Below, one piece after another: positions 4,397 through 37,610 of a stretch of DNA of 64,000 nt. Source of the stretch: Herpetosiphon aurantiacus DSM 785 (GTDB lineage Bacteria > Chloroflexota > Chloroflexia > Chloroflexales > Herpetosiphonaceae); NCBI GenBank assembly GCA_000018565.1, contig CP000875.1:5347199-5411198 (forward strand), written 5' to 3'. A model generated the notes under the pieces. It was not told where the DNA came from and searched no databases. It worked only from the letters and a program-made list of their open reading frames with translations. How positions within the stretch are numbered: the first letter of the stretch is position 1; every line of letters starts with the position of its first letter. The translations under genes and the position numbers were made by a program.

Positions 4397-5179
4397 ATGT
4401 ACGATTTACACTGTCATATTCTGCCTGGTATTGATGATGGCCCTGCCGATTGGAGTGGTTCGTTAGCAATTGCCCGCGCCTTAGTCGCCGAGGGTGTGAC
4501 GTGTGTGGCCGCTACTCCACACGGGCCTGGCTCTTCGCAATCGCGAATCTATCTACCATCACGCTTACGTGATTTGGTGGTGCAACTGCGCGAATATTTG
4601 CAACGTGCCAAATTAGGCTTGCAAGTCGTTTTAGGCACTGAAATGGTAGTTGCTAGCGATTTGACCGAGCGGTTGCGTCAAGGCGATCTGTTGGGCTATG
4701 GCACGAGTCGCGCCGTTTTGTTAGAAACGCCCGCGCATATTGTGATTGAACATTTGCAACGTTCGATTTTTGATTTACAACTGGCTGGTCATCGCGTTAT
4801 TCTGGCCCACCCCGAACGCACCCGCGTCTTCCAAGATAATCCTAATCTATTGATTCCATTAATTGAGCGTGGCGTAGTTGTGCAAATAACCGCCGCCAGT
4901 TTGGTTGGCTGGCACGGCCAGCGCTTGCAAGATATCACAACCCAAATGGTCTACCATAATTTGGCCCAAATTATTGCTAGCGATGCCCATGCGCCCACTG
5001 GTGCACGTGCGCCCGCAATGCGCGAGGCCTTTCAGGTGGCAACTCAATTGGTTGGCGAGCATCGAGCACGGCGGATGGTCGAAGAATTACCACACTTGCT
5101 GCTTTCTGATGCCCAAATTCCACTGGCTGAACCTTATTTCATCCAGCCCCAAAAGCAACGTTGGTGGCGACGACGTTAG
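4397..5179 (+). CDS. PHP-domain tyrosine-protein phosphatase, CpsB/YwqE-like
   Basis: 260 residues of the CpsB/CapC family. In Gram-positive capsule systems these metal-dependent PHP enzymes dephosphorylate the tyrosine autokinase controlling exopolysaccharide chain length. The metal-ligand motifs are visible: DLHCHILPGIDDGP at residues 3-16, a TPH motif near 41, a Glu in GTEMVV, AHPER near 137, and SDAHAP near 195. The start has AAGGCG upstream. No tyrosine kinase or capsule gene adjoins it here, although a sugar-phosphate transferase lies at 41.9 kb, so the substrate is inferred from the family only. Confidence 0.85.
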   Translation: MYDLHCHILPGIDDGPADWSGSLAIARALVAEGVTCVAATPHGPGSSQSRIYLPSRLRDLVVQLREYLQRAKLGLQVVLGTEMVVASDLTERLRQGDLLGYGTSRAVLLETPAHIVIEHLQRSIFDLQLAGHRVILAHPERTRVFQDNPNLLIPLIERGVVVQITAASLVGWHGQRLQDITTQMVYHNLAQIIASDAHAPTGARAPAMREAFQVATQLVGEHRARRMVEELPHLLLSDAQIPLAEPYFIQPQKQRWWRRR

Positions 5180-5220
5180 CCTTAATTCAACCACGAAAAC
5201 ACCAAGCGCTGTTTCGTATA

Positions 5221-5247
5221 AAGCTGCCTACGGGTAGCTTTTTCGTT
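5221..5247 (+). terminator. Rho-independent terminator after the PHP gene
   Basis: AAGCTGCC and GGTAGCTT form an 8-bp stem (one G-U pair) closed by a TACG tetraloop on a C-G pair, a very stable loop class. A T-rich tract TTTTTCGTTTT follows. It lies 42 bp after the stop codon. Confidence 0.8.
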
Positions 5248-5451
5248 TTAGTCTATTGGAACAAATAGTGCTAGTTTGTAGTATTAGTAGTGTGTACGAT
5301 GGTATGCGGAATATGGTACTATCAGCTTGATGACTAATGAGCTATAGAATATTAATCAAATTCTTATATTTATAGCCTAAATCAGCCAATGATTTATTAA
5401 GCTTGATATGATAGGATACAGCTAGGTATCCAGTTGTATGAAGGGTGTGTG

Positions 5452-5652
5452 ATGGTTATCTTTGCAGTGTTATTAATGCTCTTTGGTGGTGTGTTATTGG
5501 TTTCACGCCAATTTCGTGAGCAATGGTTTTATAACGATGCCCGCCGTGGCACAGATATGGTGTTTACGCAGCGCCTTCACCAAACCTTCCGCTCAGTCGG
5601 TGGCGCATTTATGGTTGTTGGCCTGATCATCGTGGTGATCAATACTATTTAA
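5452..5652 (+). CDS. Small two-helix membrane protein, unknown function
   Basis: I do not recognise this 66-residue protein. It starts at MVIFAVLLMLFGGVLLV, has one membrane helix at about residues 2-18, a basic/polar loop (FREQWFYNDARRGTD) and a second helix at the end (GGAFMVVGLIIVVI). The ATG at 5452 has GAAGGG upstream; an in-frame TTG 18 bp earlier has no ribosome site. It stands alone between two terminators. The 200 bp upstream are AT-rich and I found no convincing promoter there. Confidence 0.65.
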   Translation: MVIFAVLLMLFGGVLLVSRQFREQWFYNDARRGTDMVFTQRLHQTFRSVGGAFMVVGLIIVVINTI

Positions 5653-5658
5653 AAGTCA

Positions 5659-5705
5659 CTGCGCACAGAATTCCTCACCATCGGTTCTGTGCGCAGCGCA
5701 TTTTA
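5659..5705. terminator. Bidirectional terminator, small membrane gene / asd
   Basis: A perfect 12-bp stem, CTGCGCACAGAA (5659-5670) and TTCTGTGCGCAG (5685-5696), with a 14-nt loop lies between two convergent genes. TTTTA follows on the plus side and ACTTTTA on the minus side, so it can end both transcripts. Confidence 0.8.
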
Positions 5706-6758
5706 GGCTTTGATCAAGCCTTTGGCAACCATTAATTCAGCGTTGAGCAACGAACCCCCAGCGGCTCCGCGCAAGGTATTGTGCCCCAACAAAACTAATT
5801 TGTAATCAAGAATTGGGCAACGGCGAACGCGCCCAACGGTCGTCGCCATACCACGCTCAGCATCGCGATCACGGCGTGGCTGCGGGCCATCGGCCAATTC
5901 AGTTACCAAAATTGGGTGGGCTGGCGCACTTGGCAAATTGAGCGCTTGTGGTTCAGCCTTAAATTCACGCAAGACCGCGATCAATTCAGCTTCATCGGCG
6001 GGCGGACGCTCGAACGCCAATGATAAACACTCGGTATGGCCATCAATAACCGCCACCCGATTACAATGAGCGCTAATTGTGATTTGGGCTTCTTCCACGC
6101 CCTGAGCGCCAAGCGTACCCAAAAGCTTGCGTGGCTCCCACTCAACTTTTTCTTCTTCGCCTTTGATCAACGGCACAACATTGTCAATAATGTCGAGGCT
6201 TGGCACACCTGGATAGCCTGCGCCCGAAATTGCTTGCATGCTCACCAACAAAACCTTGGTGAGGCCAAAGGCATCGTGCAAAGCTCGCATTGGCAACACA
6301 GCATGGGTGGTTGTGCAGTTGGGGTTGGTCAAAATGCCGCCGCTCCAGCCATACTGTTGGCGTTGTAATTCCAACAAATTAACATGGTCAGGGTTGACTT
6401 CGGGCACTAACAGCGGCACAAGTGGATCGCGGCGATGTGCACCAGCATTTGAGAAAACCAACGCGCCTGATTTGGCCCAAGCAATTTCGGTCGGGCCAGC
6501 AGCATCACTGGGCAAGGCACTGAACACTAAGCCAACATCGCCAACCTGATCAACGGGCTGGACGGTCATCTTGGCAAATTGGCTAGGCATTTCGCCGCCG
6601 ATCATCCAGCGGCCAGCTTCGGCCAAGGTCTTACCAGCCGAACGCTCCGAAGCGGCAACTACCGTTACTTCAAAATAGGGGTGATCGATCAACAAACTCA
6701 AAAAGCGTTGTCCAACCATCCCTGTTGCGCCTAGCACACCAACAGGAATCTTCTTCAT
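5703..6758 (-). CDS. asd: Aspartate-semialdehyde dehydrogenase
   Basis: 351 residues. It reduces aspartyl phosphate to aspartate semialdehyde with NADPH, the branch point to Lys/diaminopimelate, Thr and Met. The Rossmann motif GVLGATGMVGQ begins at residue 7 and the catalytic Cys sits in NPNCTT (C148). GHTECLSLAF and a conserved C-terminal GHNTLRGAAGGS follow. Length and motifs fit the archaeal/fungal-type branch of the family. The ATG has a GGAGG ribosome site 8 bp upstream and stands alone with its own promoter. Confidence 0.95.
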   Translation of the reverse strand: MKKIPVGVLGATGMVGQRFLSLLIDHPYFEVTVVAASERSAGKTLAEAGRWMIGGEMPSQFAKMTVQPVDQVGDVGLVFSALPSDAAGPTEIAWAKSGALVFSNAGAHRRDPLVPLLVPEVNPDHVNLLELQRQQYGWSGGILTNPNCTTTHAVLPMRALHDAFGLTKVLLVSMQAISGAGYPGVPSLDIIDNVVPLIKGEEEKVEWEPRKLLGTLGAQGVEEAQITISAHCNRVAVIDGHTECLSLAFERPPADEAELIAVLREFKAEPQALNLPSAPAHPILVTELADGPQPRRDRDAERGMATTVGRVRRCPILDYKLVLLGHNTLRGAAGGSLLNAELMVAKGLIKA

Positions 6759-6827
6759 ACCAAAAGCCTCCGCAGTGGGAATGTATGTGAATTAGCACCA
6801 TTGCTCATCAGCGTCGTTGCTGCGGGC

Positions 6828-6855
6828 ATTATAGCAACTCCACACGACCCTGCAA
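6828..6855 (-). promoter_or_regulatory. Candidate asd promoter
   Basis: On the minus strand TTGCAG, a 16-bp spacer and a perfect TATAAT lie 70 bp before the asd ATG. The -35 is weak (3 of 6); the -10 is consensus. Confidence 0.5.
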
Positions 6856-6896
6856 CGTACCTAGGTTTGATGTTAATAGATTAGGGGGTTTTTAAA

Positions 6897-7334
6897 ATGA
6901 CAGATATAGATGCTCGTAACCGAATTACCCGCTTGGAAAAAGAGGTGGAGGCATTACGCCAAGAACTTAGTGTGCTTCGGGTTGAACTACGCCAGTTCAT
7001 TAAGCCTCGGACAACAACCAAACATCAACCAACATTTGAGCGCAATTTGGCTCCAGAACGCGAGCCAGAAGCCTTGGCTGATGTCGCCCAACAGCTTTCA
7101 GAGCAGGTTTCGAGCGAGGAAATTGGGGCGTATTTGAAGCGCCGCCGTGTAACCGCCAGCGACATTCAACTAACTGAGCAGGATTTGCAACGTAACCAAC
7201 CACGCAACCGCAGGGCACACCACGGCTATCCTAGCAAGCCCTATAATTTAGAGGCGTTCTATGGTAGTACTCAAACATTCATCGTATTATTTTGTTTGAT
7301 TGCCTTGCTCATGGTCTTGCTAACGATGCTTTAA
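6897..7334 (+). CDS. Coiled-coil protein with C-terminal membrane anchor, unknown function
   Basis: Not recognised. 145 residues: an N-terminal coiled coil (RITRLEKEVEALRQELSVLR, about residues 8-35), a polar, basic middle part, and a single C-terminal hydrophobic helix (FIVLFCLIALLMVLLTML) reaching the last residue, as in tail-anchored proteins. AGGGGG precedes the ATG by 9 bp. The stop codon shares a TTAA with the stop of the convergent TetR gene. Confidence 0.7.
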   Translation: MTDIDARNRITRLEKEVEALRQELSVLRVELRQFIKPRTTTKHQPTFERNLAPEREPEALADVAQQLSEQVSSEEIGAYLKRRRVTASDIQLTEQDLQRNQPRNRRAHHGYPSKPYNLEAFYGSTQTFIVLFCLIALLMVLLTML

Positions 7335-11940: not shown

Positions 11941-11977
11941 GCCTCGTCCTTTTTGACTTTTGACTTTTGAATTTCTT

Positions 11978-30761: not shown

Positions 30762-31154
30762 ATGTTACAGCGCATAGCGGTGGTCGATGATTCGAGTGAA
30801 TTTCAACAGTTAATTGATGTGATGTTGCAATACCTTGGCATTCAGGAAATTCACCACTGGGCTTCGAGCCTCGAAGCATTGCCAAAGTTGTTACAAAACC
30901 CACCAGAACTCCTGGTTCTTGATGTGATGATGTCGGGAATGGATGGGTTGAACGTTTGGCGTGAATTGCGTGCTCAGCCCCAAACCCACAGCCTACCAGT
31001 GATCATCTGTACCGCTGCGATTAATAGCATCGTGCATCAAGAAGCTGATCTCAACAACGATCCATTAACTGTAGTTTTGCCAAAACCGTTTACACTTGAT
31101 GAATTGCGTCAGGCCATAGGGCGGGTCGCACCACTTTGGCAAGTGGCAGCCTAA
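30762..31154 (+). CDS. Single-domain response regulator
   Basis: 130 residues, one receiver domain and no output domain. Acidic pair in AVVDDSSEF, phosphoacceptor in LVLDVMMSGMDG, Thr in ICTAAIN, Lys in VLPKPF. AAGGAG precedes the ATG and it lies 11 bp after the HNH gene. Stand-alone receivers act by protein contact; in a gliding bacterium motility control is possible, and the scaffold gene begins 210 bp downstream, but nothing here proves a link. Confidence 0.9.
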   Translation: MLQRIAVVDDSSEFQQLIDVMLQYLGIQEIHHWASSLEALPKLLQNPPELLVLDVMMSGMDGLNVWRELRAQPQTHSLPVIICTAAINSIVHQEADLNNDPLTVVLPKPFTLDELRQAIGRVAPLWQVAA

Positions 31155-31258: not shown

Positions 31259-31364
31259 TTTACGCCATTATTCTTTAGCAATTCGCCCAAATCCACGATC
31301 TATAAATTAATTGATCGACACGGATTATCAGATGCGCTGGATGCACAGCGCAGGGAGGAGCGGC

Positions 31365-34300
31365 ATGGCTCTCACCACGATCCAAGCACTCTACGATGAA
31401 GCACGGTCTGCTCTCGAAACAGGGAAGGAGGAGCGTGCCATTGGTGCGAGTGAGCATCTGCTTGAATCGTTTCCCTATTATCTTGAAGCGTACCGTATCC
31501 TCGGCGAATCGTATCTTAACCGCCAAGATTTAGCCAAAGCCGTCGAAGCCTTTGAACGGGTCTTACGTTCTGACCCCGAAAATATCCCTGTCCATGTGGG
31601 CTTGGGGGTAACTTACGAGCGTCAAGGTAACCTCGCAGCGGCGATCCGCGAGTTTGAGCAAGCATTTGAAATTAAGCCCGATTTGCCTGAGTTGCGCTCG
31701 CAAGTGTTGCGTTTGTATACCGAGGCTTGGGGTAGCGAAAACGCCCGAATCTTGCTGAAAAAGGCAGGTCTCGGGCGTATGTATGTGCGCGGACGACGCT
31801 TCGATAAGGCGATTCAGGAATTTAACGATGTGCTCGCCGATGACCCCAAACGGGTGGATATTGCGGTTGCGCTGGCTGAAGCACTCTGGCGTAACGGCCA
31901 AGAGGCTGAAGCCGCCGAAGTTGCCAGCGATATTCTGCGCGATTACCCCGATATGCTCAAGGCTAACTTGATTTTGGGCTATCATTTGTTGGCCGCTGGC
32001 GACCCCAAAGGCCGCAAGTTGTGGCAACATGCCCAGCAACTCGACCCCAGTCAAGGCGTGGCCTATGCCTTATTCGATGGCATGCTGCCACCAGTCGAAG
32101 CCCCCGATACCAAAATCGAGGCCTTCGATGAAGCCGCTTGGAAAGCCAAAAAAGCTGAAAAGGCCGAAAAAGAGCGGCTTGCCCGCGAAGCTGCCGAACA
32201 AGCCGAGCGCGATCGCTTGGCCGCCGAGCAAGCGAGCAAAGCGCCAGCCGCCTCTTGGTTGGCCGAAGTTGAGGCTGCCCCGGTTGCAGTCGGGGTTGCG
32301 GCTAACGCCGATGATGATTTCTTGCGTAGCTTGTTGTTTGGCGATTTTGGGGCAGCTCCTGCTAGTCCTGCACCCACAGCGGTTGCAATCGCCGAGCCAG
32401 AATACGATGTCGATTTCAATCTCGACGACTTGGGCTTAGATCTTCAGCCCTTCTCGCTCGATGAAGTTGATGACACCCCCAGCAATAAAGCGCCAACGCC
32501 TGCGCCCGAGCCTGTGGTTGCTCCAACCAAGCCTGCTCCTGAGCCAGTAGTTGCCAGCAATGATGATTTTGAGTTGCCGGGCGATCTAACGCCCTTCAGT
32601 TTTGGCGATTGGGATGAAAGCAGCATCGATGATATTCCGGGCACTGGCGCGGATACTGGCAAGTTGCCTGAGCAATTGCAGCCATTCTCCTTGGAAAATT
32701 TTGATGATGTACAACCTGAAACCAGCTCGAAAGCCCAAGATGATGATTTGGCTTTACCAAATACCTTAAAGCCATTCTCACTTGATGAACTGAGCTTTGA
32801 TTCAATCGACACACCATCAGAGCCAAGCATGCCCTTCAGCCGCGATTTACCCAGCTTCCCCGATACCGATCAAGAATCAGGTGGTTTTAGCTGGCAACAA
32901 CCACGTTCACGTTCGCGCTCGATTTTTGGGGCACAACCTGAACCAGAGTTCAACCAAGATGAAGAAGATGATGCTGGAATTTTCAACCGCATGGTGATCA
33001 AGAAGCAGACGCAAACCCTGCCACCATTGGTTGAGCCAGTCTATGATCCTGCCGATTCTGACGATGAGGCAATGAATTTCTTCTCGAATGATGATGTTGA
33101 TTTGCGTAATTACGATGAGCATGATCTGCACACTGCTGATACTGAGCCAGCAATTACGCCATTCTCATTAACTGAATTGGGCTTGGATGCTGATGAAATT
33201 GCTGATTACAATGCCATGGGCAATCTCAGCCAACCGCAAACCCAAGTCGATGAAGAATTGGAAATTAAGCCCTTCTCGCTGACTGAACTTGGCTTGAGCG
33301 ACGATGAAATTGCCTTGCTGCAAGCTGGCGAAGATAGCGCTTTGCCCACCGATCCAACTAACGATGAATCGGGCTTAACCCCATTTTCCTTAAATGAATT
33401 TGGTTTTGACACGCCTGCGACTAACGATGATCAAGGCTTCAACTTCGATGAGCCAAGTATCACGCCATTCTCGCTCGATAATTTAGGGCTTGATCCTGAG
33501 GAGCAAGCGCTTTATTCAGGCGAGTTCAATCCAGCACCTGTGGCTGAACCCACGCCCAAGGTGGAAGAAGAGCCAAATATGACTCCCTTCTCCTTGACCG
33601 ATTTGGGACTTGATGCTGATGAAATTGCTCAATTTGAAGCAATGAATCAAGCACCAGCTGCCATCGATGATGATGGTTTTGATGGTGGTTTGCAGCCATT
33701 CTCGCTCGATGATTTGGGCTTTGATCAAGAACCTCAAGCCTATGAAGAGCCAGTGCGCGAACTAAGTGATAGCTCACAACCCTTCTCCTTGAACGATATT
33801 GGTTTATCGGCAGAGGAAATTGCGGCAATCGAGCAAGCTGGCCAAAATCAAAGCGATGATCCAATCTTTGATGCGCTTTTGGGAATTGGTCAACAGCAAG
33901 GCTATGTCGATTTGACCGATATCATCAATCAATTCGATGATCCTGAATCGCAAACCGAGGAAATCGACCGCATCGCTTTGGCCTTGCACGATAATGGTAT
34001 TCAAATTCGCGATGGCGATGAAGTGATTAATATGGACGAGGAGTTCTCTGGTGACGAGGCTGAAGCCTACGAAACCGAAGAACCACTTGAAAACTTCATT
34101 GCTGGCGATTTCGACCAGCCAACTGCTGAAGTCGAGCCAGAAATGACTCCGTTCTCGTTGACCGATTTGGGCTTGAGTGCCGAAGAAATCGCGATGTTGA
34201 ATGGCGAAACCAGCGAAGCGCCGACTGAAGAGCCAGCACCATTCTCCTTCGATAATTTCGAGCTTGAGCAACCCAGTGCCGAAGTCGAGCCGGAAATGAC

Positions 34301-36638
34301 TCCGTTCTCGTTGACCGATTTGGGCTTGAGTGCCGAAGAAATTGCGATGTTGAATGGCGAAACCAGTGAGCCTGCTGCCGAAGAACCAGCACCATTCTCC
34401 TTCGATAACTTTGAGCTTGAGCAACCCGCAACGGACGCTGAGCCAGAAATGACTCCGTTCTCGCTGACCGATTTGGGCTTGAGCGCCGAAGAAATTGCCA
34501 TGTTGAATGGTGAAACCAGCGAAGCGGCGGCAGAAGAACCAGCGCCATTCTCCTTCGATAATTTCGAGCTTGACCAACCCGCAACGGATGCTGAGCCAGA
34601 AATGACTCCGTTCTCGCTGACCGATTTGGGCTTGAGCGCTGAAGAAATCGCCATGTTGAATGGCGAAACCAGCGAAGCGGCGGCAGAAGAACCAGCACCA
34701 TTCTTCTTCGATAATTTCGAGCTTGAGCAACCCGCAACGGACGCTGAGCCAGAAATGACTCCGTTCTCGCTGACCGATTTGGGCTTGAGCGCCGAAGAAA
34801 TTGCGATGTTGAATGGCGATACCAGCGAAGCGGCGACCGAAGAGCCAGCACCATTCTCCTTCGATAATTTCGAGCTTGACCAACCTGCAACGGATGCTGA
34901 GCCAGAAATGACTCCGTTCTCACTGACCGATTTGGGCTTGAGCGCTGAAGAAATCGCGATGTTGAATGGCGAAACCAGCGAAGCAGCGGCGGAAGAACCA
35001 GCACCATTCTCCTTCGATAATTTCGAGCTTGACCAACCCGCAACGGATGCTGAGCCAGAAATGACTCCGTTCTCGTTGACCGATTTGGGCTTGAGCGCCG
35101 AAGAAATCGCAATGCTGAATGGTGAAACCAGCGAAGTGGCGGCGGAAGAACCAGCACCATTCTCGTTTGATAATTTCGAACTTGAGCAACCAAGTGCGGA
35201 AGCCGAGCCAGAAATGACTCCGTTCTCGCTGACCGATTTGGGCTTGAGCGCCGAAGAAATCGCGATGCTGAATGGCGAAACGAGCGAAGCGGCGGCAGAA
35301 GAACCAGCACCATTCTCCTTCGATAATTTTGAGCTTGACCAACCCGCAACGGACGCTGAGCCAGAAATGACTCCGTTCTCGTTGACCGATTTGGGCTTGA
35401 GTGCCGAAGAAATTGCCATGCTGAATGGTGAAACCAGCGAAGCGGCGGCAGAAGAACCAGCTCGATTCGCATTCGATGATTTTGAGTTTGAGCAACCAAG
35501 TGCCGAAGCTGAGCCAGAAATGACTCCGTTCTCGCTGACCGATTTGGGCTTGAGCGCCGAAGAAATTGCTGCTCTGGAAGGCACAAGCGCACCTGAACCT
35601 GAGATTGAAGCTGAAGAGCCTGATATGTCGCCCTTCACCTTTGATCAACTAGGCTTGAGCGCCGAAGAAATTGCCGCATTGGAAGGTAACGAGGCTCCAG
35701 CAGCCGAGCCAGCCAGCGAGCTAGAGCCTGATCTCACGCCATTCTCGCTAGCCGATTTGGGCTTGAGCGATGATGAAATTGCTTCATTGCAACAAGGCGA
35801 CGATGATCGGAGCTTGAAGCTGAGCGAAGAAGAATTGATGGGCATCGATTTTGCTTTGCCAAGCGCCGAGCCAGAACCAGAGCCAGTGGTCGAAGCAGCG
35901 CCAGCCGAACCCGAAATGACCCCATTCTCGTGGGAAGATTTGGGCTTGAGCGACGACGAAATTGCCATAATTGAATCGCCAGCCGAGCCAGTGGTTGAGG
36001 TTACGCCAGTTGTGGTCGTGCCAACGCCGCCTGCAATTGTCGAAACCCCACCAGCAATTAGCGCTACACCAACGCCAAAAGCTGAGCCAGAGGCTGATAA
36101 CAAACGTGCTCCGTTGTATCCAGTTTCATCACGGCCACGTGAAGAAGAACAACGCCCACGCGCACCGTTGTATAACGTCTCGCCACGCCGTGAACCAAAA
36201 CCAGCGGCTGAAACGCCAGTGGTTGAAACCTCACCCGTGGTGGCTCAAACCCCAACACCAGTAGCAGTAGCACCTGTGGCTAGCCCAACAGTTACGCCAA
36301 GCAGTGGTGGGGCCAGCGGCGATGGCCCAGACTTTAGCGAATACTACCAACAACTTGAGGCCGACCCAAACAACCATGGCTTGCGAATGGCCTTGGCGCG
36401 GATGATTAGTCAGACCGCCTCGGTTGATCAAGCCTTAAACGAATACAAACGGCTGATTAAACAAAATCAACTGATGGATCAAGTAGTTGATGATCTGCAA
36501 GATCTGATTGAGTCGCACGATGACCCAGGCTTGCTCCAACGGCTGCACCGTGCTTTAGGTGATGCCTATTCTAAGCAAGGACGCTGGCGTGAAGCGATGG
36601 ATGAGTATGGCTGGGTGCTAAATAAACCACGTCGTTAA
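31365..36638 (+). CDS. Giant TPR protein with PFSL-x-x-LGL repeat region
   Basis: 1757 residues, unrecognised as a whole. N-terminal TPRs (~1-250, e.g. AYRILGESYLNRQDLAKAVE) are followed by a charged helix (KAEKAEKERLAREAAEQAER). A strongly acidic, low-complexity region (~310-1560) has about 25 copies of the motif PFSLTDLGLSAEEIA, ten of them in a 51-residue tandem array (from ~924). A Pro/Ala/Val linker (~1560-1655) leads to a C-terminal TPR-like domain (HRALGDAYSKQGRWREAMDE). No signal peptide or membrane helix, so it is cytoplasmic. The start at 31365 has GGAGGAG; the frame is open 18 codons earlier. The Roadblock gene follows 32 bp later. A scaffold presenting many copies of one short binding motif is inferred. 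Confidence 0.85.
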   Translation: MALTTIQALYDEARSALETGKEERAIGASEHLLESFPYYLEAYRILGESYLNRQDLAKAVEAFERVLRSDPENIPVHVGLGVTYERQGNLAAAIREFEQAFEIKPDLPELRSQVLRLYTEAWGSENARILLKKAGLGRMYVRGRRFDKAIQEFNDVLADDPKRVDIAVALAEALWRNGQEAEAAEVASDILRDYPDMLKANLILGYHLLAAGDPKGRKLWQHAQQLDPSQGVAYALFDGMLPPVEAPDTKIEAFDEAAWKAKKAEKAEKERLAREAAEQAERDRLAAEQASKAPAASWLAEVEAAPVAVGVAANADDDFLRSLLFGDFGAAPASPAPTAVAIAEPEYDVDFNLDDLGLDLQPFSLDEVDDTPSNKAPTPAPEPVVAPTKPAPEPVVASNDDFELPGDLTPFSFGDWDESSIDDIPGTGADTGKLPEQLQPFSLENFDDVQPETSSKAQDDDLALPNTLKPFSLDELSFDSIDTPSEPSMPFSRDLPSFPDTDQESGGFSWQQPRSRSRSIFGAQPEPEFNQDEEDDAGIFNRMVIKKQTQTLPPLVEPVYDPADSDDEAMNFFSNDDVDLRNYDEHDLHTADTEPAITPFSLTELGLDADEIADYNAMGNLSQPQTQVDEELEIKPFSLTELGLSDDEIALLQAGEDSALPTDPTNDESGLTPFSLNEFGFDTPATNDDQGFNFDEPSITPFSLDNLGLDPEEQALYSGEFNPAPVAEPTPKVEEEPNMTPFSLTDLGLDADEIAQFEAMNQAPAAIDDDGFDGGLQPFSLDDLGFDQEPQAYEEPVRELSDSSQPFSLNDIGLSAEEIAAIEQAGQNQSDDPIFDALLGIGQQQGYVDLTDIINQFDDPESQTEEIDRIALALHDNGIQIRDGDEVINMDEEFSGDEAEAYETEEPLENFIAGDFDQPTAEVEPEMTPFSLTDLGLSAEEIAMLNGETSEAPTEEPAPFSFDNFELEQPSAEVEPEMTPFSLTDLGLSAEEIAMLNGETSEPAAEEPAPFSFDNFELEQPATDAEPEMTPFSLTDLGLSAEEIAMLNGETSEAAAEEPAPFSFDNFELDQPATDAEPEMTPFSLTDLGLSAEEIAMLNGETSEAAAEEPAPFFFDNFELEQPATDAEPEMTPFSLTDLGLSAEEIAMLNGDTSEAATEEPAPFSFDNFELDQPATDAEPEMTPFSLTDLGLSAEEIAMLNGETSEAAAEEPAPFSFDNFELDQPATDAEPEMTPFSLTDLGLSAEEIAMLNGETSEVAAEEPAPFSFDNFELEQPSAEAEPEMTPFSLTDLGLSAEEIAMLNGETSEAAAEEPAPFSFDNFELDQPATDAEPEMTPFSLTDLGLSAEEIAMLNGETSEAAAEEPARFAFDDFEFEQPSAEAEPEMTPFSLTDLGLSAEEIAALEGTSAPEPEIEAEEPDMSPFTFDQLGLSAEEIAALEGNEAPAAEPASELEPDLTPFSLADLGLSDDEIASLQQGDDDRSLKLSEEELMGIDFALPSAEPEPEPVVEAAPAEPEMTPFSWEDLGLSDDEIAIIESPAEPVVEVTPVVVVPTPPAIVETPPAISATPTPKAEPEADNKRAPLYPVSSRPREEEQRPRAPLYNVSPRREPKPAAETPVVETSPVVAQTPTPVAVAPVASPTVTPSSGGASGDGPDFSEYYQQLEADPNNHGLRMALARMISQTASVDQALNEYKRLIKQNQLMDQVVDDLQDLIESHDDPGLLQRLHRALGDAYSKQGRWREAMDEYGWVLNKPRR
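34134..35663 (+). repeat. 153-bp tandem repeat array inside the giant gene
   Basis: Ten units begin at 34134, 34287, 34440, 34593, 34746, 34899, 35052, 35205, 35358 and 35511, exactly 153 bp apart; the last degenerates after about 60 bp. Each unit encodes 51 residues, EPEMTPFSLTDLGLSAEEIA followed by a PAPFSFDNFEL half. Units 3, 6 and 8 are identical in protein. Older, diverged copies flank the array on both sides. Confidence 0.97.
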
Positions 36639-36670
36639 CGCACCAAGCAACTGAAGAAAGGCTAGACCCT

Positions 36671-37018
36671 ATGCGTCATATCGTTGAGGACTTAATTCGG
36701 GTTGAAGGGGTTATCGGCAGCCTCTTAGTGGGCCGCGATGGTTTGGTTATCGCCAGCACTTTAATCGAAGATGAAGATGCTGAAGTATTGGGCGCGATGT
36801 CGGCAGCAGTGTTCGGCGAAATTGATAAAGCGACCAAACGGATTGGGATTGGCACGTTGGTTGATGCAATTATTGATGCCAAAGATGGTTCGATTCTGTT
36901 GCTCGAAGCTCGTGATGTGATTCTGACGGTGGTAACGCAACGAATGGTTAATCTTGGTTTGGTCAAGATTGAAATGCGCCGCGCTGCCAAAAATATTAGC
37001 AAGGCCGTGCCGATTTAA
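36671..37018 (+). CDS. Roadblock/LC7-domain protein (MglB-like)
   Basis: 115 residues, one Roadblock/LC7 domain with EDLIRVEGVIGSLLVGRDG near the start and MVNLGLVKIEMRRAA at the end. Bacterial members such as MglB act on Ras-like GTPases (MglA) that control polarity and gliding. No MglA is visible in this window. AAAGG precedes the ATG, 32 bp after the giant TPR gene, with one terminator behind both, so the two form an operon. Physical association with the scaffold is inferred from that. Confidence 0.88.
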   Translation: MRHIVEDLIRVEGVIGSLLVGRDGLVIASTLIEDEDAEVLGAMSAAVFGEIDKATKRIGIGTLVDAIIDAKDGSILLLEARDVILTVVTQRMVNLGLVKIEMRRAAKNISKAVPI

Positions 37019-37038: not shown

Positions 37039-37071
37039 GCGAGCTACCTTGATTGGTGGCTCGCTTTTTTT
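37039..37071 (+). terminator. Terminator of the scaffold-Roadblock operon
   Basis: GCGAGCTACC and GGTGGCTCGC form a 10-bp stem (one G-U pair) with a 6-nt loop, followed by TTTTTTT, 20 bp after the stop. Confidence 0.9.
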
Positions 37072-37160: not shown

Positions 37161-37610
37161 GTGGAAAAGTCATTGATCATCTTAAAGCCTGATGCAGTTC
37201 AACGTGGTTTAATTGGGCCAATTTTGACCCGCTTGGAAGCTCGCGGCTTGAAATTTATCGGCATCAAATTGTCGCAAGTTAGCAGCGAGTTGGCCCACAA
37301 GCACTATGGCGTACACGAAGGCAAGCCATTTTTCGCTGGCTTAGTTTCGTACATTACCTCAGGCCCAGTGCTGGTTGTTGCAGTTGAAGGCAAAGATGTG
37401 ATCGAAATTGTGCGCTCAACCGTTGGCGCAACCAATCCCGTCAAGGCTGCCCCTGGCACAATCCGTGGCGATTTTGGTGTGAACATCGGGCGCAACTTGA
37501 TCCACGCCTCAGACTCACCTGAAAATGGCGATCATGAAGTGGCCTTGTTCTTCAGCAGCGAAGAATTGATCCGCTCAGAACGCTCAGTCGATCAATGGAT
37601 TACCGAGTAA
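37161..37610 (+). CDS. ndk: Nucleoside-diphosphate kinase
   Basis: 149 residues. It transfers the gamma phosphate between NTPs and NDPs through a phosphohistidine. The catalytic His is H115 in NLIHASDSPE. Other family motifs are LIILKPDAVQRGLIG, GKPFFAGLVSYITSGPV and GATNPVKAAPGTIRGDFG. GTG start with GGAGG 10 bp upstream. It stands alone, with a strong terminator behind it. Confidence 0.97.
   Translation: MEKSLIILKPDAVQRGLIGPILTRLEARGLKFIGIKLSQVSSELAHKHYGVHEGKPFFAGLVSYITSGPVLVVAVEGKDVIEIVRSTVGATNPVKAAPGTIRGDFGVNIGRNLIHASDSPENGDHEVALFFSSEELIRSERSVDQWITE

Follow-up and report, generated by a model that had tools for sequence, protein, structure and literature searches.

The window analysed here is a 64,000-nucleotide stretch of Herpetosiphon aurantiacus DSM 785 (CP000875.1, positions 5,347,199 to 5,411,198), and all coordinates given are positions within it. 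On the forward strand an open reading frame at 31365–36638 encodes a 1757-residue protein, which we call the TPR-PFSL scaffold; the gene starts with ATG and has a Shine-Dalgarno sequence, GGGAGGA, at 31353–31359. A gene for a 115-aa Roadblock/LC7 protein (36671–37018, forward strand, Pfam PF03259) starts 32 nt past the scaffold stop and encodes the proposed docking partner. A terminator-like stem-loop followed by a T run (37039–37064, forward strand) separates this gene pair from an NDK gene at 37161–37610, which is found downstream of the TPR gene, or of the TPR-Roadblock pair, class-wide and adjoins the TPR gene even where the Roadblock is lost. On the other side a single-domain response regulator (30762–31154) lies between an HNH gene and the TPR gene; its syntenic matches are limited to family f1 (Herpetosiphonaceae).

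The scaffold is capped at both ends by TPRs, as the sequence-only reading had proposed for a protein of this length. Pfam TPR matches define an N-terminal domain (aa 1–245, 31365–32099, forward strand), and TPR_20 and TPR_7 matches define a C-terminal TPR-like domain (about aa 1652–1749, 36318–36611, forward strand), which AlphaFold2 models in the homologue L090 as a helical solenoid whose pLDDT exceeds 90. The acidic region described between them was borne out, with a pI of 4.05 for the protein and a net charge of about −291 for aa 246–1650. Outside its domains the scaffold is acidic and proline-rich and, to judge by composition, probably disordered. The layout first described had omitted a domain resembling sigma-70 region 1.1 (aa 836–905, 33870–34079, forward strand; Pfam PF03979, 24.9 bits against a cut-off of 22.5), sitting immediately N-terminal of the tandem array. 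The same domain occurs in L090 (slightly under the cut-off), L100, L079 and L073, and in L073 it persists in the motif-less orthologue of genome G050. The scaffold does not classify as a sigma-70 factor, PF03979 being matched alone with no regions 2 to 4 in Pfam.

The earlier statement that no named family has this layout held up in profile searches. The scaffold fell under all curated NCBIfam equivalog cut-offs, the best being PrsT (93.4 against 312.2), while MamA scored 64.9 against a cut-off of 200 and PilW and the other TPR equivalogs likewise fell short. No description of the scaffold appeared in the published literature searched. Matches to DUF1127 were judged not to mark a domain but to add up from weak similarity to the LGLSxEEI portion of the repeated motifs, and long antisense open reading frames across the tandem array were rejected as repeat by-products.

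The region between the TPR caps carries 32 copies of PF[STF][LFWI], with PFSLTDLGL and PFSFDNFEL as the two main flavours, confirming the repetition seen at first reading, although not the count of about 25. A motif peptide of the scaffold is PFSLTDLGLSAEEIAML. With the nine-residue canonical pattern 28 motifs were detected, compared with a mean of 0.008 and a maximum of 1 in 2000 shuffles. Four diverged copies make up a first cluster (aa 362–488, 32448–32828, forward strand) and seven copies a second (aa 599–822, 33159–33830, forward strand), so 11 copies precede the array where about 12 had been estimated; the three further copies expected after it are present (aa 1423–1535, 35631–35970, forward strand). 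The tandem array itself (34134–35566, forward strand; TRF and unit comparison) comprises 9.4 units of 153 bp, or 51 aa. It carries PFSLTDLGLSAEEIA, and most units also contain PFSFDNFEL. The array had been called perfect, but its units are only about 90% identical (TRF) and most hold both motif flavours.

Variation among nine array units is partitioned between motif and linker. Motif codons show eight positions with synonymous-only variation and none that change an amino acid, whereas linker codons show six synonymous and nine amino-acid-changing positions (Fisher p 0.007, motif versus linker). This codon pattern indicates that the motif is under purifying selection. The motif has also been re-expanded genus by genus with differing unit length and linker, the unit being 51 aa in Herpetosiphon, 34–36 aa in genus g12 and 33–39 aa in several other genera, and array copy number and length differ between species. 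Across 21 genomes scanned, a degenerate DNA pattern for the motif was concentrated in the scaffold gene, and matches elsewhere were about as frequent as in the reversed control. As the motif is confined to the scaffold gene, a dedicated partner is implied. Several of the pattern matches elsewhere in Herpetosiphon are TTTTGAC-type repeats; a short tract of this type, which looks non-coding, lies at 11948–11973 and at other sites in the genome.

The product of 36671–37018 belongs to the Roadblock/LC7 proteins, with a PF03259 score of 60.1 bits against 23 and a Roadblock fold in the model of its L090 counterpart. This model matched Roadblock and MglB structures with TM scores, by target length, of about 0.8–0.9, and its Foldseek matches were Asgard Roadblocks, MglB and Ragulator subunits. 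The protein thus resembles bacterial MglB, a Roadblock GAP for MglA, in its predicted fold, but it differs in scoring 17.6 bits against 200 on the curated MglB equivalog model (NF052242) and in not being encoded beside mglA, located more than 2 Mb distant on the same chromosome.

For structure prediction with AlphaFold2 we used a natural stop-readthrough single chain from L090, which contains three motifs, the C-terminal TPR and the Roadblock. The chain had a pTM of 0.33. Its motifs were predicted as small helix-turn-helices (pLDDT about 78–90), its linkers had pLDDT mostly under 50 and its Roadblock about 90. In a Roadblock-less control, which had a smaller alignment, motif pLDDT was about 74–84. 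Comparing the chain with and without the Roadblock, AlphaFold2 gave no confident docking of motif on Roadblock, in a single-chain format that cannot form a Roadblock dimer.

A docking role would sit badly with a gene missing from close relatives. The scaffold orthologue was found in 60/60 searched genomes of the order, with the motif conserved across the order, and also in much of the class, where the N-terminal TPR was matched in 98 of 158 genomes and is kept even where motif and Roadblock are lost. When a single protein was searched against the genome contigs, it matched five loci of Herpetosiphonaceae and, weakly, three distant TPRs. The adjacent Roadblock is present in most genomes of the order, at mostly 78–84% identity beyond the genus and nearest family members, and the gene order TPR-Roadblock-NDK is kept in those Roadblock-bearing loci of the order where the contig covers this stretch. 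In several further families of the class the TPR gene precedes the Roadblock, usually with NDK next, and the PF motifs are more diverged. Five genomes of other families in the class that bear a Roadblock have one minimal motif only, which is near chance.

The motif and the Roadblock are also lost together. In genus g6 (11 genomes searched, ~3 Mb) and in g19 (two genomes) neither a Roadblock gene nor MglA was found, and at the loci that reach NDK the TPR and NDK genes adjoin directly. The seven TPR proteins examined there (six from g6, one from g19) are shortened, with open frames of about 650–900 residues; no canonical motif was present in them, and a relaxed minimal motif gave zero or one copy. 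Both TPR regions nevertheless persist in the motif-less g6 and G050 proteins, so the pairing of motif and TPR is not obligate and the TPR backbone must have some other role. Genome G050, of g19, is the sister of G052, which has the Roadblock and about ten motifs, and it is placed far from g6, hence two independent losses occurred within the order. Outside the order, genome G101, from another family, has a 344-residue TPR frame running into NDK and no match for motif, Roadblock or MglA, and is probably a third case. On the class tree there are three independent changes in the Roadblock and the motif never changes in the opposite direction, although these events are too few for a sign test to reach significance.

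Identity of the N-terminal TPR is 0.35–0.41 in g6 compared with about 0.52–0.64 in the rest of the order, and that of the g6 NDK is 0.70. These values indicate that the g6 TPR diverged after the loss while NDK did not. Genome G012 has lost the adjacent Roadblock and keeps MglA and three canonical motifs, the lowest number among apparently complete orthologues of the order that keep any, which resembles decay; its NDK has also diverged, so G012 does not speak for a specific effect. Conversely, in G109 (98% complete) the adjacent Roadblock and minimal PF motifs occur with no MglA match. The loss extends to Tad/T2SSE ATPases (PF00437), with none over the cut-off in ten g6 genomes, one distant match in G050 and strong matches in the other 49. 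PF00437 was used because TIGR01420 gave no match over its cut-off in any relative. Genus g6 (G010, G029, G039, G042, G054, G056 and others), which has no Roadblock, MglA or T2SSE ATPase over cut-off, is probably non-gliding. Since MglA, other Roadblocks and the Tad ATPase are lost together, the identity of the motif partner is confounded.

We interpret the scaffold as a multivalent platform that docks Roadblock dimers, as part of an MglA polarity module in control of surface (Tad-pilus) motility, with a rough probability of 0.52; the binding, its stoichiometry and the link to motility are what we infer. A multivalent docking platform had been proposed from the sequence alone, and the idea gains indirect support from the operon, the synteny, the selection on the motif and the co-loss with Roadblock and MglA, but not from AlphaFold2. 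The gene pair at 31365–37018 would encode scaffold and client, the scaffold having two TPR caps with an acidic, putatively largely disordered chain of some 1400 residues between them. The chain would bear about 30 short acidic helix-turn-helix motifs (PFSLxxLGLSxEEIA), each docking on a Roadblock dimer in the manner of the C-terminal helix of RomR in the MglC cleft, or of the dynein intermediate chain with LC7. A bivalent dimer on a chain with many sites could produce a high-avidity Roadblock cluster in which scaffold copies are cross-linked. Via the Roadblock, the cluster may concentrate or regulate an MglA-type GTPase, other Roadblocks and the surface-motility apparatus, probably the Tad pilus, with the TPR and region-1.1-like domains anchoring it to other partners. 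In a more specific version, a polybivalent Roadblock ladder, Roadblock dimers would hold two or more scaffold chains together through their many near-identical docking sites, and the resulting duplex or condensate would place the MglA switch and the Tad pili and so govern Chloroflexota gliding. This is a tentative proposal that we consider rather doubtful as it stands.

The closest parallels come from known polarity and light-chain systems. In Myxococcus xanthus, residues 371–420 of RomR bind MglC with a KD of 2.6 nM, and modelling with mutagenesis places the RomR helix in a positively charged cleft at the MglC dimer interface (PMC12719032). RomR-MglC/MglB is alike in joining a disordered chain with a Roadblock-dimer-binding helix to an MglA polarity system, binding that the scaffold would share. 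RomR, however, combines a folded receiver domain at its N-terminus with a single C-terminal helix, whereas the scaffold has TPRs and about 30 short motifs and no Response_reg match in Pfam. SgmX (PMC7668184) and Bd2492 (PMC3983030) are cytoplasmic TPR proteins that link MglA to pili. SgmX consists solely of 14 TPRs; in the scaffold Pfam finds TPRs only at aa 1–245 and about 1652–1749, as two caps flanking a long, probably disordered motif array and a region-1.1-like domain, and its genomic partner is a Roadblock. The dynein intermediate chain is a disordered chain with multivalent sites for LC7/Roadblock and two other dimeric light chains, LC8 and Tctex (PMC9771362). The motif array and the Roadblock gene would fit such a hub, with disorder suggested by composition and the low pLDDT of the L090 linkers. 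The intermediate chain is eukaryotic and has one LC7 site per chain among three different light chains, whereas the scaffold has up to about 30 near-identical candidate sites and no motor link, and we claim no homology. The parts are of known kinds; a many-copy scaffold associated with a Roadblock is new, as far as we can tell.

The direct partner could be the adjacent Roadblock, MglA or another member of the co-lost module, with G109 favouring the Roadblock and G012 favouring MglA or decay. The best-surviving alternative, though unlikely, is that the motif docks MglA, or the complex of MglA with its associated Roadblock of ~166 aa, the adjacent Roadblock being a co-regulated subunit. Loss of the motif coincides with loss of MglA in g6, g19 and G101, G012 retains both MglA and motifs although its adjacent Roadblock is gone, and TPR proteins are known to interact with MglA, namely SgmX and Bd2492 (PMC7668184, PMC3983030). 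On the other hand, G109 has the reverse combination, the few motifs of G012 look like decay, and mglA is distant whereas the adjacent Roadblock shares the operon of the scaffold.

Barely less probable is that the motif binds another part of the surface-motility machinery, such as a Tad pilus component, and that its co-loss with the Roadblock reflects loss of motility. T2SSE/Tad ATPases do vanish with Roadblock and MglA, and the group includes known gliders (PMC13104615, PMC7332563), gliding being reported for Herpetosiphon and Chloroflexus (PMC13104615), with Chloroflexales genomes that were examined having Tad pili only, proposed as the drivers of gliding (PMC7332563). The operon nonetheless holds no motility gene, and what is cleanly absent from a syntenic position is the Roadblock.

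We think it less likely still that the motif binds the TPR grooves of the scaffold itself, in autoinhibition or self-assembly with no recruitment of Roadblock. Short peptides are often bound by TPR grooves, and the motif occurs only in this TPR protein, yet both TPR regions are kept in the g6 and G050 proteins without it. A low-complexity acidic repeat that lacks a specific partner and has expanded neutrally would account for the differences between species in array copy number and length, but is highly improbable given that motif codons change only synonymously while linkers change at the amino-acid level, and that the motif survives in independently expanded arrays and is near absent from the rest of the scanned genomes.

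Docking of Roadblock dimers by the scaffold would bear on the control of gliding in Chloroflexota, which is largely uncharacterised and for which the scaffold-Roadblock pair is a concrete, class-wide candidate complex. It would also point to a bacterial multivalent Roadblock scaffold, eukaryotic members of the Roadblock family sitting in dynein and the Ragulator complex. As MglA, Roadblock proteins, scaffold motifs and Tad ATPases form one co-lost set, the motility question can be tested by comparing lineages.

A separate MglA cluster was located at L107 (G000:C1:1060000-1073000, about 4504–7016), comprising a 121-aa protein, a Roadblock-like 167-aa protein, MglA and a downstream gene of 268 aa; for MglA and the 167-aa protein, Herpetosiphon and G028 share 79–81% identity. 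A role for the motif in serving a 122-aa Roadblock paralogue was discarded, genome G009 keeping its motifs with only the adjacent and the MglA-linked Roadblock.
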